The position numbers and the translations under genes are program-made. Of a stretch of DNA of 64,000 nt, positions 1 through 5,054 are shown piece after piece; position 1 is the stretch's first letter, and each line of letters begins with the position of its first letter. The stretch comes from Flavobacterium nackdongense (GTDB lineage: Bacteria; Bacteroidota; Bacteroidia; Flavobacteriales; Flavobacteriaceae): the NCBI RefSeq assembly GCF_004355225.1, contig NZ_CP037933.1, positions 1 through 64,000 of the forward strand. The letters are read 5' to 3'. A model generated the notes under the pieces. The model was given only the letters and a program-made list of their open reading frames with translations, was not told the DNA's origin and did no database searches.

Positions 1-2
1 GT

Positions 3-545
3 TGGGGACATTTAGGAGAAAATGCAAAAAAACGATTTGAAGAAGGAAAAAACAAATGGTTATCAAACACTTATGGATGGACTCGAGCTGGGTATTTTTT
101 ATATAAATATGAGATTAAAAAAGGTACAAGGGAGGATGTTGAAAAAATAAGAACAGATATATTTAAAGATGATAAAGTTTCAATTGACCACATAGTAGCA
201 AGAGGATTAACTAAAGAAAGTTTAGGTTATGCAGATTATGAAAATCTAAATGAAAATGACGAGCGAAAAAAAGAAGCAAATGAATTGTGGAAAGAAATTT
301 GGGGTGTAATAAATGGCATTGGAAACCTTGCTTTATCTACAGCAAGTAATAATTCATCCGATTCAAATGGATTACCAAATGAACACATTGAAACTTATAA
401 AAAATGTGGATTTATAGAAACGGCTAAACAAGTAGAAACTTGGAAAAATCCTGAACAATTTGTTTCAAGAATAAATGAAAGAAGTGAAGATATTATGGGG
501 TTTATCTACGAAAGTATTGTCAACAGAAATGATCTTTGGGAATAG
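3..545 (+). CDS. C-terminal part of a DUF1524 (HNH-like) nuclease, probably GmrSD/DUF262 family (5' partial)
   Basis: The frame is open from the first bases of the window to the stop at 543-545, so the start lies upstream; the first in-frame ATG (285) is internal. About 180 residues are visible. SIDHIVARG near residue 60 and IGNLAL about 45 residues later match the pattern of DUF1524, an HNH-fold domain in which a DHI/EHI histidine is followed by an Asn-rich (I/L)GNL motif. In known proteins DUF1524 is usually fused to an N-terminal DUF262 nucleotide-hydrolysing domain, as in GmrSD-type modified-DNA restriction enzymes. The DUF262 half would be outside the window, so the full architecture is inference. 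A terminator follows directly. A second, unrelated-looking member of the family lies at 12493-15003. Confidence 0.7.
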   Translation, partial: WGHLGENAKKRFEEGKNKWLSNTYGWTRAGYFLYKYEIKKGTREDVEKIRTDIFKDDKVSIDHIVARGLTKESLGYADYENLNENDERKKEANELWKEIWGVINGIGNLALSTASNNSSDSNGLPNEHIETYKKCGFIETAKQVETWKNPEQFVSRINERSEDIMGFIYESIVNRNDLWE

Positions 546-564
546 ATTATAAAATTTAAAATCA

Positions 565-603
565 TAAAAAAAAACGACATCCTAAAAAGTGTCGTTTTTT
601 TTA
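565..603 (+). terminator. Rho-independent terminator after the DUF1524 gene
   Basis: AAAAAACGACA and TGTCGTTTTTT form a perfect stem around a loop of about 10 nt, ending in a T run. It starts about 20 bases after the stop codon. Confidence 0.8.
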
Positions 604-617
604 TGAATTAAATTTTC

Positions 618-690
618 ACTCTGCCGTTTTTTGGCATTGATCTCTCCTAATTTCGTATTTTGGGAAAGCTGAAAACCAACAAGAGTAGGC
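618..690 (+). repeat. 73-nt structured intergenic element, copy 1
   Basis: This stretch matches 1138-1210 over the same 73-nt length without gaps (about 56 of 73 positions by hand count). Both copies have ACTCT at the start and AGAGT near the end, which can pair, an internal GCC/GGC hairpin, and a conserved hairpin TTGG-GAAAGCYGAAAA-CCAA, then AGGC. The layout resembles a three-way junction. It ends 19 nt before the ATG of the 140-codon gene at 710. It could be a cis-acting RNA leader or a recombination/cassette junction; the sequence alone does not decide. It does not carry a recognisable attC core (GTTRRRY). Confidence 0.6.
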
Positions 691-709
691 AAAATTAAAA
701 TTTATAGCA

Positions 710-1132
710 ATGGAATTTACTTATGAAAGATTAGATATTTGTATCTTATTAGATAATTTAAAAAATGAAGAAATAAGAAAAACATTAGCCTATATGGTTG
801 ATTTTAAGGAACACGAAAATCTTATTGTTATTCCAAAACCGTATTCAATTGAAATCTTCAATGCTGCTATTTGCATAGCTATTATAGTTTTTGTCGGTTT
901 TGAAAAGGAAGAATATGACACTTTAAAAACCAAAAACAATCCTCACGTAGTTTCTTTTGATAGGATAACGCAAACAATGATTGAATTTAAAAATATGCCC
1001 ATAAAACACATCGATTATATGGCTTTGTTTTTTATGTCTTTAGCAAGAACGGAGGATAAAAAGGTACAAGAATTTTTGAGTCTTAAAGATTTAAGTAGAT
1101 ATGATACTGTACATCAATTAAGAAAAAAATAA
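710..1132 (+). CDS. Hypothetical protein, 140 aa
   Basis: I do not recognise this protein. It is predicted cytosolic and mixed alpha/beta, with one hydrophobic stretch near residues 48-62 (NAAICIAIIVFVGF) that is short and probably a buried strand or helix rather than a membrane anchor. There is no signal peptide. The ATG follows the 73-nt repeated element by 19 nt, and a second copy of the element starts 5 nt after the stop codon, so the gene sits between two copies like a cassette. Small unknown genes downstream of a nuclease domain could be immunity-type genes, but nothing in the sequence proves this. Confidence 0.6.
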   Translation: MEFTYERLDICILLDNLKNEEIRKTLAYMVDFKEHENLIVIPKPYSIEIFNAAICIAIIVFVGFEKEEYDTLKTKNNPHVVSFDRITQTMIEFKNMPIKHIDYMALFFMSLARTEDKKVQEFLSLKDLSRYDTVHQLRKK

Positions 1133-1137
1133 TTTGA

Positions 1138-1210
1138 ACTCTGCCTTCTTTTGGCTTACCTGCCCTCTAATTTTATCCCTTGGGAAAGCCGAAAACCAAC
1201 TAGAGTAGGC
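1138..1210 (+). repeat. 73-nt structured intergenic element, copy 2
   Basis: Second copy of the element at 618-690, with the same length and the same potential pairings: ACTCT 1138-1142 with AGAGT 1202-1206, GCC with GGC, and the TTGG/CCAA hairpin. It ends 21 nt before the ATG at 1232. The most variable part is the middle, while the GGGAAAGCYGAAAACCAAC block and the two ends are conserved, as expected if the fold or the terminal sites are under selection. Confidence 0.6.
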
Positions 1211-1231
1211 AAACTATAAACATATATTATT

Positions 1232-1462
1232 ATGGCTCAAATGATTTTAAAGGGAAAAGAAATGATTCGAATTAATCCCTCAACGAAAACTAAAATTGAA
1301 TATTCCACTAATGATGGTAGAAGCTGGATGGCTCGTTCTACTTCGACATCATATGGAGATTTTTCAGACTTGACCGATAATGGCAAAGAAATTCTGGGAA
1401 TGACTTCAAAAGGATTGTATTATTCCACCAATGAAGGCAGAAGCTGGATGAAAAGAAGTTAA
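1232..1462 (+). CDS. Small BNR/Asp-box repeat protein, 76 aa
   Basis: The protein has two near-identical motifs, YSTNDGRSWMARS (about residues 24-36) and YYSTNEGRSWMKRS (63-76). These match the Asp-box/BNR pattern S-x-D-x-G-x-x-W found as beta-hairpin turns in sialidases and other propellers. With only two repeats it cannot form a whole propeller. No signal peptide is seen. The second repeat ends the protein. It follows copy 2 of the 73-nt element. Function unknown. Confidence 0.6.
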   Translation: MAQMILKGKEMIRINPSTKTKIEYSTNDGRSWMARSTSTSYGDFSDLTDNGKEILGMTSKGLYYSTNEGRSWMKRS

Positions 1463-1499
1463 AATTCAGTAGCTATTTTATTTTTTTTCAATTCTATTT

Positions 1500-1536
1500 G
1501 AACCGTCACAATATGGCATTGTGGCGGTTTATTTTT
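1500..1536 (+). terminator. Rho-independent terminator after the small BNR gene
   Basis: AACCGTCACAAT (1501-1512) pairs with ATTGTGGCGGTT (1518-1529) around ATGGC, with one G-T wobble, followed by TATTTTTG. Its position argues against a start codon for the next gene inside it, so I place the AAA gene start at 1565. Confidence 0.8.
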
Positions 1537-1564
1537 GTCTCATAATAATCAATACTTAGAAATT

Positions 1565-3217
1565 ATGGAAGAGAACAACATCATCATAGCATTAGAAACC
1601 ATCCACAACACTTCAAAGAAATCAAAATTGAAACTTGCATCTTATGATAGTATTCAAGTTGAAATAAAACTAGTTTCTGACTATTTTCAAGTCAACACTA
1701 CCGAAGTTATCTTGCTAGCAACTTGCTTTATACAATCTTGCTTTGATTCGTTTGAATTGCCTGCCATTATTAAACATTTTGGATTAGAAAAACATAGTTT
1801 TTTAAAATATTTGGGAAGTTTCAATTTATTAATTTCAAAATCGATATTAACTAAAACGGAAAATCGTCATTCTGAAAATGACTACAGACTGTCAAACCAT
1901 ATTTATGATTACATACTTAACCAAAAAACAATTCCAAAAGAATTATTAGAAATAAAAATCAAAGAAAATACCTTTACTGAATTTTTATCTGATATGGATA
2001 TTTTGAGTAATCAGAAAGATGACGAAAAAATAAACTACTATTATTTCATTCAAAAATTCAAAGATTTATTGAATACCAACAAACATTTTAAATTGATTGA
2101 ATTTGCGCTTAAAAACCTTGAATTGGTCGATACGTTTGTGTTTTTTGATACTATTTTGGATGCAATGAATTGTGGTGAAAATGATTTCAATACGGGATTA
2201 CAAAGCACTGTTGAAGATTTTTATGAACGAAAAAGAGATTCATTCAAATACATTAATAATTTTCTCGAAGAAAAAACAAAATTAAACCAATTTAATTTAA
2301 TAGAAAAAGATTCCAATTCATTTTCCAACAGACACCGTATTCAACTAACTGTAAAGGCGGTTTTGATGTTGAAAGAATGGGAAGGTATTTCACTGGAATT
2401 TGTAGAAAAAAAAGACAAACGATTGATTTATCCTGACCAAATTCAAAAGCGAAATTTATTTTACAATAGAGAGGAAGAATTGCAACTCGACCCCATCAAA
2501 AAAAGTCTTTCTAACACTTCATTTATTAAATTACAAACTAGGTTAAAATCAAAAAATATGAATGCTGGAATTGCAACTATTTTGTATGGCGCTCCTGGAA
2601 CTGGCAAAACAGAATCTGTCTATCAATTGGCCAAGAAATACAATCGTTCTATTTTTAAAGTAGAAATTTCGGAAACCAAATCGATGTGGTTTGGAGAAAG
2701 TCAGAAGTTGGTCAAAAAAATATTTACTGATTATTATAATTTTAAAAAGACACAAAAAGTATGTCCAATTCTATTGTTTAATGAAGCTGATGCTATTATT
2801 GGCAAAAGAAAAAGTGCCGGTTCCTCATCGGTAGCCGATACCGAAAATGCCATACAGAATGTGTTATTGGAAGAATTGGAAAACTTTGACGGAATTCTAT
2901 TTGCAACGTCAAATTTGGTAGCCAATTTGGATTCGGCATTTGAACGTCGTTTTCTATTCAAAGTAAAATTTGAAAATCCAAGTATCGAAAATGCTGCCAA
3001 AATATGGAAAAGTAAATTGCCTACTCTTTCTTCTAATGAGGCAATACTATTGGCATCACAATTCTCTTATTCCGGAGGAGAAATGGAGAATATTGCAAGA
3101 AAAGCGATAATGGATGAAATTGTTTTTGGCAATAAACCCAACTTTGAACGAATCCGTTCATTTTGTGAAAATGAAAAATGGAGTAGTAAAAATAGTGGAA
3201 TTAGAATAGGGTATTAA
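1565..3217 (+). CDS. AAA-family ATPase, 550 aa
   Basis: The N-terminal half (about 340 residues) is helical and unrecognised. The C-terminal half is a classic AAA module: Walker A GAPGTGKT near residue 342, a Walker B-like ILLFNEADAI near 402, sensor ATSN, and an FERRF arginine-finger region. The Walker B acidic pair reads NE rather than DE, which is worth noting although some AAA subfamilies show it. The longest ORF starts at a TTG (1535) that lies against the terminator stem; ATG 1565 (MEENN) is preferred. The gene converges with the EEP-nuclease gene, the two overlapping by 4 bp at their 3' ends. Substrate unknown; a remodelling role is inferred from the family. Confidence 0.8.
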   Translation: MEENNIIIALETIHNTSKKSKLKLASYDSIQVEIKLVSDYFQVNTTEVILLATCFIQSCFDSFELPAIIKHFGLEKHSFLKYLGSFNLLISKSILTKTENRHSENDYRLSNHIYDYILNQKTIPKELLEIKIKENTFTEFLSDMDILSNQKDDEKINYYYFIQKFKDLLNTNKHFKLIEFALKNLELVDTFVFFDTILDAMNCGENDFNTGLQSTVEDFYERKRDSFKYINNFLEEKTKLNQFNLIEKDSNSFSNRHRIQLTVKAVLMLKEWEGISLEFVEKKDKRLIYPDQIQKRNLFYNREEELQLDPIKKSLSNTSFIKLQTRLKSKNMNAGIATILYGAPGTGKTESVYQLAKKYNRSIFKVEISETKSMWFGESQKLVKKIFTDYYNFKKTQKVCPILLFNEADAIIGKRKSAGSSSVADTENAIQNVLLEELENFDGILFATSNLVANLDSAFERRFLFKVKFENPSIENAAKIWKSKLPTLSSNEAILLASQFSYSGGEMENIARKAIMDEIVFGNKPNFERIRSFCENEKWSSKNSGIRIGY

Positions 3218-3885
3218 AGGGAATAATCAATTTGAATACTGATGCCTTTATGATCCGATAACTTTTTTTCAAGATTCCATTCGTGGGTTTCTATTTTAGC
3301 ATTGCCAATAAATTCTTGGCTGATGGCAATATGGTCGATGGTTTCTGGTAAATGGTGGGTTAGGTTTGTGATTTTGTTTTCTAAGAAGGAGTTGTTGAGT
3401 TCCTTTCTTCCCCGATTGGTGAAGTAATAATTATCAGAAAAAGAGAGATTGTAATCTCCAATAATGCAGATGTTTTGGTTTTTTGACAATGTATTGAAAT
3501 CGATGATCTGTTTTGGAAGATCTGTTTTGAAATTTTCATTTCTGTTGCCAAAGATTCCAATTATGGTGCCATAAACTAATAGATTTCCTTTTTCGGTTTT
3601 TATTTCAGCGCAACAACTGGTATATTCATCATAGGTTTGAAACTGATTTACAATTTCATATTTGGAATATATTTTCACCCTTTTTTCGGAAGGCATGTAA
3701 TAGGCCGGTTGGATTTCAGATAGACTTTTTGTTGCTATTTGGAAAGGATAATTTTTCAGATTTACTCTTTCATCATACTCTGTTAACACTAAAATATCGG
3801 CGTTTAGGTTTTCTAAAATAGCAATAATATTAGCTGTTTCTTTTGAATATTTTAATCTCTCCAGATTCCAAGTTGCGATGGTCAT
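3214..3885 (-). CDS. Endonuclease/exonuclease/phosphatase (EEP) family protein, 223 aa
   Basis: EEP-fold metal-dependent hydrolases cut nucleic acids or phosphodiesters. The expected motifs are all present: N-terminal TWNLERL with the metal-binding Asn/Glu, DILVLTE near residue 30, IIGDYNLSFSD near 141 (GDxN), TIDHIAIS near 182, and LSDHKG near the C-terminus with the catalytic histidine. No signal peptide, so it is probably cytosolic. It is the last gene of a three-gene minus-strand set (vWA, 381-aa protein, this gene), each separated by 23 bp, and its 3' end overlaps the AAA gene by 4 bp. The substrate (DNA, RNA or small molecule) cannot be told from the sequence. Confidence 0.8.
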   Translation of the reverse strand: MTIATWNLERLKYSKETANIIAILENLNADILVLTEYDERVNLKNYPFQIATKSLSEIQPAYYMPSEKRVKIYSKYEIVNQFQTYDEYTSCCAEIKTEKGNLLVYGTIIGIFGNRNENFKTDLPKQIIDFNTLSKNQNICIIGDYNLSFSDNYYFTNRGRKELNNSFLENKITNLTHHLPETIDHIAISQEFIGNAKIETHEWNLEKKLSDHKGISIQIDYSL

Positions 3886-3908
3886 AAAAGTTTCAAATTT
3901 AATTTGAA

Positions 3909-5054
3909 TTAAACATCAAGACCAACAACCAATTCCCGATCCAGTTGGATACCTTTTCGCTCCCCTCTATTCCCTTTGATACTATAAAAATCCATTAAGG
4001 ATTCACCAACTGCATCTTTTATTTTTCTGTTAATTCTGGATAAAATAATATTCATATCATTTTCTGTGGGGTTGACCAACAATTCTAAAGCATTCTGGAT
4101 AGTTTCAGGATTGGATTGATTATTAAAACGAGCATATAAATTCTTCAACTCTTCCTTGTGGTCCTGTAATTCATTTAAATTTATGCCCGCGGGATGATTC
4201 ATAAATAATAAGTACAATGCTTTTTCTTTTGGGTTTAACCTCAACTCAAGACCTCCTAAATCTGTAAAATAAATCTTTTTTGTATATCCCTTTAATGCCA
4301 TTCTGCTTGGTTGATGAAATAATTTAGAACGCCCTCTGAAGGTCATAATTTCACGAATTCCGTCTAGAATTTCAAAAAACTGCCTAGTGTATAAGGTGGG
4401 AACATCTCTTTCTTTAAAATGATTCATACAACTATCGCAGACATCAGCGGTTCTCATTTTTAAAATAATTTGTGACTTGTCCTGGCAAAAATCCATAATG
4501 CATCCCATAGGGGTTTTGTGGATATTTTCCATTATGGCTTCGGTGGAGGGAAACATATAAAAGCGCATTACCCAAATAATTACTTCATAGGCTATGGGAA
4601 ATCGAATGTCTATGGTGGTACCAAAAAAGTGCTCCCAGTTTGAAGTTTGAACAAAATAATTTTTCATATTTGGAGAAACCCCTCCAAACCAATTGGGTTT
4701 ATTTCCAACATCGGTAAGCAACACTACAATGTCATTTTTATCAATCTTTTTTTTAGACCGATACTTGTCACACACAACAAATAATTGGTCCCAAGTTTTT
4801 GTTTTTTCCTTGTAAGGAAAGTTAATGGAATTCTCAGAAACAACCAATTGGGAATACATTAATTGAGAAGGATTTAATTTTTCAAAATCTATTTGATTTG
4901 TCCATTCTCTTTCTTCCTCTTCGTAATCTTTGGATAAAACTTCTTCTTCGCATTCTTGAAAATGCAAAGGGCCTCGAAATTGTTGTAATAAATGAAGCAC
5001 ATTTCTATAGGTTTCTTCATTTAATTCTGGAGATCGTAGGAGGTGTATATTCAT
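3909..5054 (-). CDS. Uncharacterised protein with a CxxC motif, 381 aa
   Basis: No family was recognised with confidence. Residues 100-230 contain DIVVLLTDVGNKPNWFGG, then EVIIWVMRFYMF, HKTPMGCIMDFC and RTADVCDSCMNHF. The spacing Glu-His-GCxMDFC-CxxC recalls the C-terminal half of archaemetzincin-like metalloproteases, where a cysteine cluster binds zinc. The HExxH active site is absent, so at best this is a degenerate relative. The C-terminal 120 residues are helical (LNLNEL...LSRINRKIKDAVGESL) and look like a winged-helix or helical bundle. It lies 23 bp downstream of the vWA gene and 23 bp upstream of the EEP nuclease gene, which suggests one transcript and a shared job. Confidence 0.6.
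   Translation of the reverse strand: MNIHLLRSPELNEETYRNVLHLLQQFRGPLHFQECEEEVLSKDYEEEEREWTNQIDFEKLNPSQLMYSQLVVSENSINFPYKEKTKTWDQLFVVCDKYRSKKKIDKNDIVVLLTDVGNKPNWFGGVSPNMKNYFVQTSNWEHFFGTTIDIRFPIAYEVIIWVMRFYMFPSTEAIMENIHKTPMGCIMDFCQDKSQIILKMRTADVCDSCMNHFKERDVPTLYTRQFFEILDGIREIMTFRGRSKLFHQPSRMALKGYTKKIYFTDLGGLELRLNPKEKALYLLFMNHPAGINLNELQDHKEELKNLYARFNNQSNPETIQNALELLVNPTENDMNIILSRINRKIKDAVGESLMDFYSIKGNRGERKGIQLDRELVVGLDV

Follow-up and report, generated by a model that had tools for sequence, protein, structure and literature searches.

The first 64,000 nucleotides of a 4.2-Mb contig of Flavobacterium nackdongense (the window, which begins at base 1 of the contig) contain two copies of a short leader RNA on the forward strand, each just upstream of a start codon. 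Judged by homology, these copies are divergent members of the Rfam family DUF805b (RF02914), a family that is already catalogued and to which they add. The 33-nt leader has a predicted H-type pseudoknot fold and rather likely sets the efficiency with which ribosomes start at the AUG 19–21 nt downstream. Copy 1 lies at 658–691 (32.0 bits over 659–691) and copy 2 at 1178–1211 (33.6 bits over 1179–1211), with E values of 3.7e-7 and 1.1e-7 in a search of 641 bases. Both align over the full length of the model (positions 1–35 of 35) and have the conserved loop and the AGAGUAGGCA tail. Their scores are below the gathering cut-off of 35.6 bits, and a default scan therefore overlooks both: at gathering scores a tRNA is the sole Rfam match in the window, and the leaders appear with relaxed filters. 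The initial annotation had found no match to a named riboswitch or to attC; a named family does match, slightly below its cut-off. RF02914 is classed as Cis-reg and belongs to clan CL00115, of which DUF805 is presumably another member; cmscan reports the best clan member only. The literature that we searched gave no function for DUF805b.

We treat the cut-off as a reporting threshold. Homology with the leaders of orthologous loci and relatives that score above it connects both window copies with the family. Fifteen loci with orthologues of the second downstream gene, which encodes 76 aa, gave seven leader matches of 29.3 to 40.5 bits, one of which (in L270) is the leader of the adjoining 140-aa gene; three of the 15 reach the cut-off (40.5, 37.7 and 35.6). 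The genome of F. nackdongense itself has six clear copies, two of them over the cut-off (44.9 and 43.7). Eight relatives yielded ten matches over the cut-off in six loci, and L018 and L022 had no match above it. Among the matches listed, 91 of 149 genomes at the family level have a hit at E 0.001, 69 of them above the cut-off, and 80 of 395 at the phylum level have one at E 1e-7, 76 of them above it. None of the 14 control genomes matched.

The two gap-free 73-nt copies that were first noticed in the window (618–690 and 1138–1210) are real, and both lie inside a longer gap-free repeat pair of 96 nt (611–706 and 1131–1226; 75% identical, spacing 520), the longest among five direct-repeat families in positions 1–4000. 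The resemblance is far beyond chance, since a single Rfam model fits both copies and the core pattern is frequent in the genus: 78 of 199 genomes of the same genus contain the 16-nt core when at most one mismatch is allowed, some of these matches not being leaders. The 73-nt unit consists of a promoter-like region of about 40 nt followed by the 33-nt leader. The first leader precedes a gene for a protein of 140 aa to which no function is assigned (710..1132, forward strand), which has 38 homologues, the few with an organism name being mostly from Flavobacterium. The second precedes the gene for the 76-aa protein (1232..1462, forward strand), which has a repeated YSTN-GRSW unit and belongs to a large family of 437 homologues. 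Neither protein attains a Pfam cut-off. They have no family in common, as expected from the earlier description of the two genes as unrelated.

The division of the 73-nt unit follows from the orthologous loci. The 76-aa gene has 16 clear matches in 249 same-genus genomes, the window's own included. Among 14 intact orthologous loci, the leader is present in eight and missing in six. One further locus (L282) has the leader before a broken frame; another (L279, around position 1500) has a decayed leader that has lost the GCY of its loop and a stop inside its copy of the 76-aa gene, so that the two seem to degenerate jointly. Across the 16 loci the leader is present or absent as a unit between similar promoter regions and orthologous genes. 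The promoter-like region of unit 1 (627..655, forward strand) has a box TTTTTTGGC at 627–635 (TTTG at 630–633), 14 nt and a -7-like box TAATTTCG at 648–655; that of unit 2 (1149..1175, forward strand) has TTTTGGC at 1149–1155, 14 nt and TAATTTTA at 1168–1175. These 14 nt are shorter than the usual spacing of the Bacteroidota promoter boxes. The published consensus of those boxes is TTTG/TANNTTTG (PMC6847099). TTTG, 14 nt and a -7-like box recur in 14 of the 16 leaders compared; the spacing is 15 nt by script in one, and one has no box. Whether or not the leader is present, a TTTG-like box with a -7-like TAnnTTTG is found in 13 of the 14 intact loci (two boxes have one mismatch), and L274 has no TTTG-like box. 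Both leaders of the neighbouring 140-aa gene are preceded by TTTG-like and -7-like boxes too. Since both kinds of locus have the boxes, the unit begins with 40 nt that are a promoter-like region. The distance from the end of the -7-like box to the GG of stem 1 is 5–6 nt in nine of ten leaders. Transcription is predicted to start near 660 and 1180, within a few nucleotides of the start of the leader, which would be the very 5' end of the mRNA in the window.

The promoters differ in one respect. The -7-like box is perfect in none of ten leader-bearing promoters (all are one position off the consensus) and in five of six without the leader (Fisher exact test, p = 0.0014), a comparison between related sequences in which two genomes contribute two leaders each. 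We also looked for TAnnTTTG as a general promoter just upstream of all copies and did not find it: 111 copies had 31 near matches between -25 and -3, where 25 would be expected; the promoter statement is therefore confined to orthologues of the window genes. Seven other loci (L181, L192–L195, L198 and L231) have TTGGCAC..TTGA about 30–45 nt upstream of the leader, which we take to be sigma-54-like by its consensus, and the genes behind this arrangement mostly encode one secreted-protein family with an FDFNT motif.

The fold is predicted from the two copies and from covariation across bacteria. Copy 1 would form a stem of 660–663 with 676–679, a loop at 664–675 and a pseudoknot of 668–670 (GCT) with 688–690 (GGC, one G-U pair). 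The same elements in copy 2 are a stem of 1180–1183 with 1196–1199, a loop at 1184–1195 and a pseudoknot of 1188–1190 (GCC) with 1208–1210 (GGC). The TTGG/CCAA hairpin proposed initially is present in both copies and closes the fold (among the four pairs that cmscan models, it flags one as non-standard in either copy), and its stem pairs covary. Two other pairings proposed at the time, a GCC/GGC hairpin and an ACTCT/AGAGT pairing of the ends, are not kept in orthologous leaders. The GCC/TTTTGGC 'hairpin' includes the conserved promoter box, and five orthologous loci have GCC with TTTGTC, which is unable to form it; ACTCT itself is not conserved. Plain folding of either copy gives a stability that is not unusual (z = -0.67 and -1.45). 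We set the single-sequence fold aside as misleading: it joins TGCC with GGCA and is unable to display the pseudoknot.

The bacterial consensus reads, with exceptions, NNNGN-GNNA-NCY-GAAAA-NC-spacer-AGAGUA-RGN-A, where the GCY of the hairpin loop pairs with the RGC of the tail. We measured covariation in an alignment (A2) of 126 distinct sequences and six pairs, stem 1 (columns 4–6/19–21) and a second helix between loop and tail (11–13/38–40). From 136 distinct cores, ten were excluded by eye: four were out of register beside a proper match and the rest were taken for chance matches, except for one that lacked a usable frame. Sequences were admitted if stem 1 had at least 3 bp or a start codon lay at 10–33 nt; the pseudoknot was not used. 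Because admission rested partly on stem 1, selection biases the stem-1 count upwards. In A2, 97.4% of 756 cells are paired, against 73.6% in shuffles that disregard the relatedness of the sequences, and 176 cells changed on both sides. The covariation score was attained by none of 500 shuffles, a shift of the partner by one to three columns abolishes the covariation, and the three aligned stem pairs covary over the 126 sequences. The pseudoknot taken alone is 97.4% paired against 83.8% in shuffles, with 41 cells changed on both sides. Its outer pair takes all four Watson-Crick forms (GC 85, UA 16, AU 8, CG 6, GU 5, other 6), and broken pairs number six at the outer, one at the middle and three at the inner position among the 126. 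The number of further pair types is not above shuffles, being reached by 480 of 500 for all pairs and 276 of 500 for the pseudoknot. Loci fetched by their loop patterns agree with the pairing: GCC goes with GGC in 40 and with AGC in three, GCT with GGC in four and with AGC in eight (Fisher exact test, p = 5e-5). The three GCC/AGC cases in bacteria are C-A combinations, which count against the pairing. The suggestion that the element is a functional RNA stands: the compensatory changes proposed as its test are found in stem 1 and also in the loop-tail helix, which had gone unnoticed.

The unpaired GNNA, GAAAA and AGAGUA are strictly conserved around this short pseudoknot, as in the compact pseudoknot aptamers of preQ1-I and SAM-II. 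They might bind a metabolite that opens or blocks the start region, and the leader would then be a riboswitch. We consider this unlikely, because the downstream genes have no evident common pathway and the placement before many unrelated viral genes (see below) would be odd for a metabolite sensor. The 21-nt spacer also seems too short for a separate expression platform; the leader may act directly on initiation.

The position of the leader favours a role in translation initiation. The RGC tails end at 690 and 1210 and the ATGs begin at 710 and 1232, which gives gaps of 19 and 21 nt, exactly those first read from the sequence. Of 119 well-formed bacterial copies, 112 have an ATG frame 10–33 nt downstream on the same strand. 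The distance from tail to AUG has its median and its peak at 21 nt, and the median is alike in bacteria and viral contigs. It is 19–23 nt in 67 of 110 bacterial copies, counted when stem 1 and at least two of three pseudoknot pairs are present, or a 2-bp stem and three pairs, and in 70 of 85 viral copies among the matches listed. The spacer is 49–56% A and 3% G, and an A/T-rich stretch with so little G could hardly accommodate a Shine-Dalgarno site or a terminator rich in G+C. A larger set of 129 bacterial copies, with at least two of three pseudoknot pairs and an ATG at 10–33 nt, includes 24 with the stop codon of an upstream frame within 35 nt; seven of these frames overlap and may not be real genes. 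Given these stop codons and those on viral contigs (below), many copies probably lie inside polycistronic transcripts. An element that occurs both at the 5' end of an mRNA and inside polycistronic transcripts points to the translation of the next gene.

These properties bear on the proposal that the unit is a site of DNA recombination through which small genes travel as cassettes. Two adjacent copies before two unrelated small genes would fit it, as would neighbouring genes that differ between strains. We regard it as extremely improbable. The copies covary as RNA does, keep a single orientation on the strand of the following frame and hold a nearly fixed distance to the AUG. Outside the element the promoter-like region is similar with or without the leader, which comes and goes between promoter and gene.

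We scanned viral contigs, a collection separate from A2, with exact loop and tail patterns. The GCC/GGC combination occurred in at least 120 stretches, GCT/AGC in 45, the GCT/GGC wobble in 43 (the type of window copy 1), TCC/GGA in 27 and ACC/GGT in six. The mismatched combinations TCC/GGC and GCC/GGA gave none and three, respectively, and a reversed control pattern gave none in these contigs. Within 45 nt, a start codon with an open frame of at least 25 aa followed 100 of 107 distinct GCC/GGC copies (among the matches listed), 37 of 38 GCT/AGC, 29 of 32 GCT/GGC, 15 of 24 TCC/GGA and four of five ACC/GGT copies, and neither of two mismatched GCC/GGA copies. Positions were taken from 93 viral copies drawn from the 120 loci listed, 85 of them with a frame. 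Among the matches listed, a previous same-strand frame of at least 50 aa ends within 400 nt upstream of 81 of these 85 copies, and in 51 of the 85 the upstream stop ends at most 15 nt before the loop. These 51 stops often lie inside stem 1, and two run past the loop.

Such packing between cistrons could also be expected of an element of mRNA stability or processing, whose fold would shield a 5' end or mark an intergenic cut and so give each gene its own mRNA level. In the window, moreover, the element would begin within a few nucleotides of where transcription is predicted to start. Translation control and a role in stability or processing would be hard to tell apart by such traces; stability does not, however, require the near-fixed distance of 21 nt to the AUG in both settings, and we hold this role to be unlikely. 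Still less probable, in our view, is a binding site for a trans-acting protein or small RNA serving as a switch common to peptide, defence-adjacent and viral genes. AGAGUA and GAAAA are conserved and unpaired, and genomes have several copies (up to 12 in one, among the matches listed), yet retaining a host repressor site before so many of its genes would burden a virus.

The genes behind the leader are diverse. From bacteria we took 87 representative proteins and searched 86 of them for families (one protein of 1425 aa was excluded). These include 11 DUF6520 proteins, three with a T9SS tail, two DUF6140 and two TIGR04149 RiPP precursors, with single cases of DUF805, rhodopsin and aldehyde dehydrogenase; inspection by eye shows a double-glycine leader in further short proteins. 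We considered a regulon of RiPP or DUF6520 genes and rejected it: in related genomes, only two of 11 DUF6520 loci and none of seven TIGR04149 loci have the RNA, which indicates that it is optional. With a broad gene set and an optional leader, no single regulon emerges. The genes had been described as small, which holds for 46 of 122 complete downstream frames of bacterial copies (at most 100 aa), but the median is 162 aa and 38 of the 122 exceed 200 aa. The 52 viral representatives (PHROGs) include up to 13 of a ParB-like family and 12 of a DNA methyltransferase family, whose members may overlap, and one Acb2/Tad1-like protein. The latter, at L426:1546–1782, is an anti-CBASS-like Acb2/Tad1 hairpin protein of a virus behind a DUF805b leader. 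A bacteriorhodopsin-like gene follows a leader at L211:1122–1924. In L199, L229 and L094, at least three leader-gene units lie within a few kb, and short double-glycine genes are among those of L199 and L229. Of three viral-contig queries against annotated phage records, two had no match and one had three partial matches, all of them weak and under 40% identity.

Several leader-bearing small genes adjoin nucleases. Upstream of the two leader genes, the window has the C-terminal part of a GmrSD-type nuclease gene (3..545, forward strand), and an N-terminal part lies at L006:18692–19999, open at the end of the contig; downstream the window has an AAA ATPase gene, IetA-like in PADLOC (1565..3217, forward strand). 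L006:16284–19999 and window positions 3–3217 together form a variable hotspot spanning the contig ends, with a WYL regulator, an RNase-T-type exonuclease, the GmrSD-type nuclease, the two leader genes and the IetA-like ATPase; in orthologous loci, PDDEXK_4 nucleases and further genes take their place. Elsewhere, leader copies before small genes lie beside GmrSD in L132, L027 and L022 (the tail in L022 is a variant outside the counted sets) and beside PDDEXK_4 in L018, L271, L273 and L276, while L275 has PDDEXK_4 and no leader. By eye, long imperfect palindromes TAAC...GTTA, attC-like or repeat-like, occur at L132:1300–1450 and L018:920–1060, just upstream of leader-bearing small genes adjoining nucleases.

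How might the leader act on translation? PMC6847099 and PMC9976891 describe Bacteroidota ribosomes as not recognizing Shine-Dalgarno sequences, with bS21, bS18 and bS6 holding the 16S tail to the platform of the 30S subunit (PMC9976891). For mRNAs of F. johnsoniae, PMC6847099 reports reduced pairing from -20 to +20, an A-rich context that matters and missing Shine-Dalgarno sites. The end of the leader sits just outside this open stretch. We infer that the folded RNA would lie along the upstream boundary of the 30S footprint, where it could alter the loading of the small subunit. An effect on expression would more probably be upwards than downwards; the idea of raised expression comes from the weaker -7-like boxes of leader-bearing promoters, a weak hint given that the sequences are related. 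A broader version is more tentative, and we advance it as a possibility somewhat against the odds: DUF805b may serve Bacteroidota and their viruses as a general module for starting translation, in which a pseudoknot outside the ribosome footprint replaces the Shine-Dalgarno step and viruses start each packed gene separately. The function of DUF805b is made testable by the loop-tail pairing, the 21-nt rule, the packing of viral stops against leaders and the orthologues with and without the leader. They raise the question of how start codons are selected and rated by ribosomes that disregard Shine-Dalgarno sites. If the leader raises translation, a portable module of 33 nt would be useful for expression work in Bacteroidota.

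Among known systems, preQ1-I and SAM-II are compact pseudoknot riboswitches acting on translation, and like the predicted fold of the leader they have a short H-type pseudoknot just before the start codon. The leader differs in that its tail stops about 21 nt short of the AUG and does not cover a Shine-Dalgarno site, and Rfam scans of the window gave no match to preQ1-I or SAM-II. Integron attC sites are short imperfect hairpins beside small variable genes, a setting that the window resembles. Unlike them, the leader keeps a fixed distance to the following start codon and has pseudoknot covariation; cassette borders of attC type are independent of start codon and promoter, and the leader lies between a promoter-like region and the AUG. 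Compared with the DUF805b model, the window copies have the same 35 positions end to end, the loop GCYGAAAA, the tail AGAGUAGGCA and the place before a gene; the structure line of cmscan has a 4-bp hairpin only, and the pseudoknot is a helix added to that line. The Kozak-like A-rich start context of F. johnsoniae, as given in PMC6847099, shares with the window an A-rich unpaired stretch and the lack of a Shine-Dalgarno site, to which the window adds a folded module just outside the stretch.
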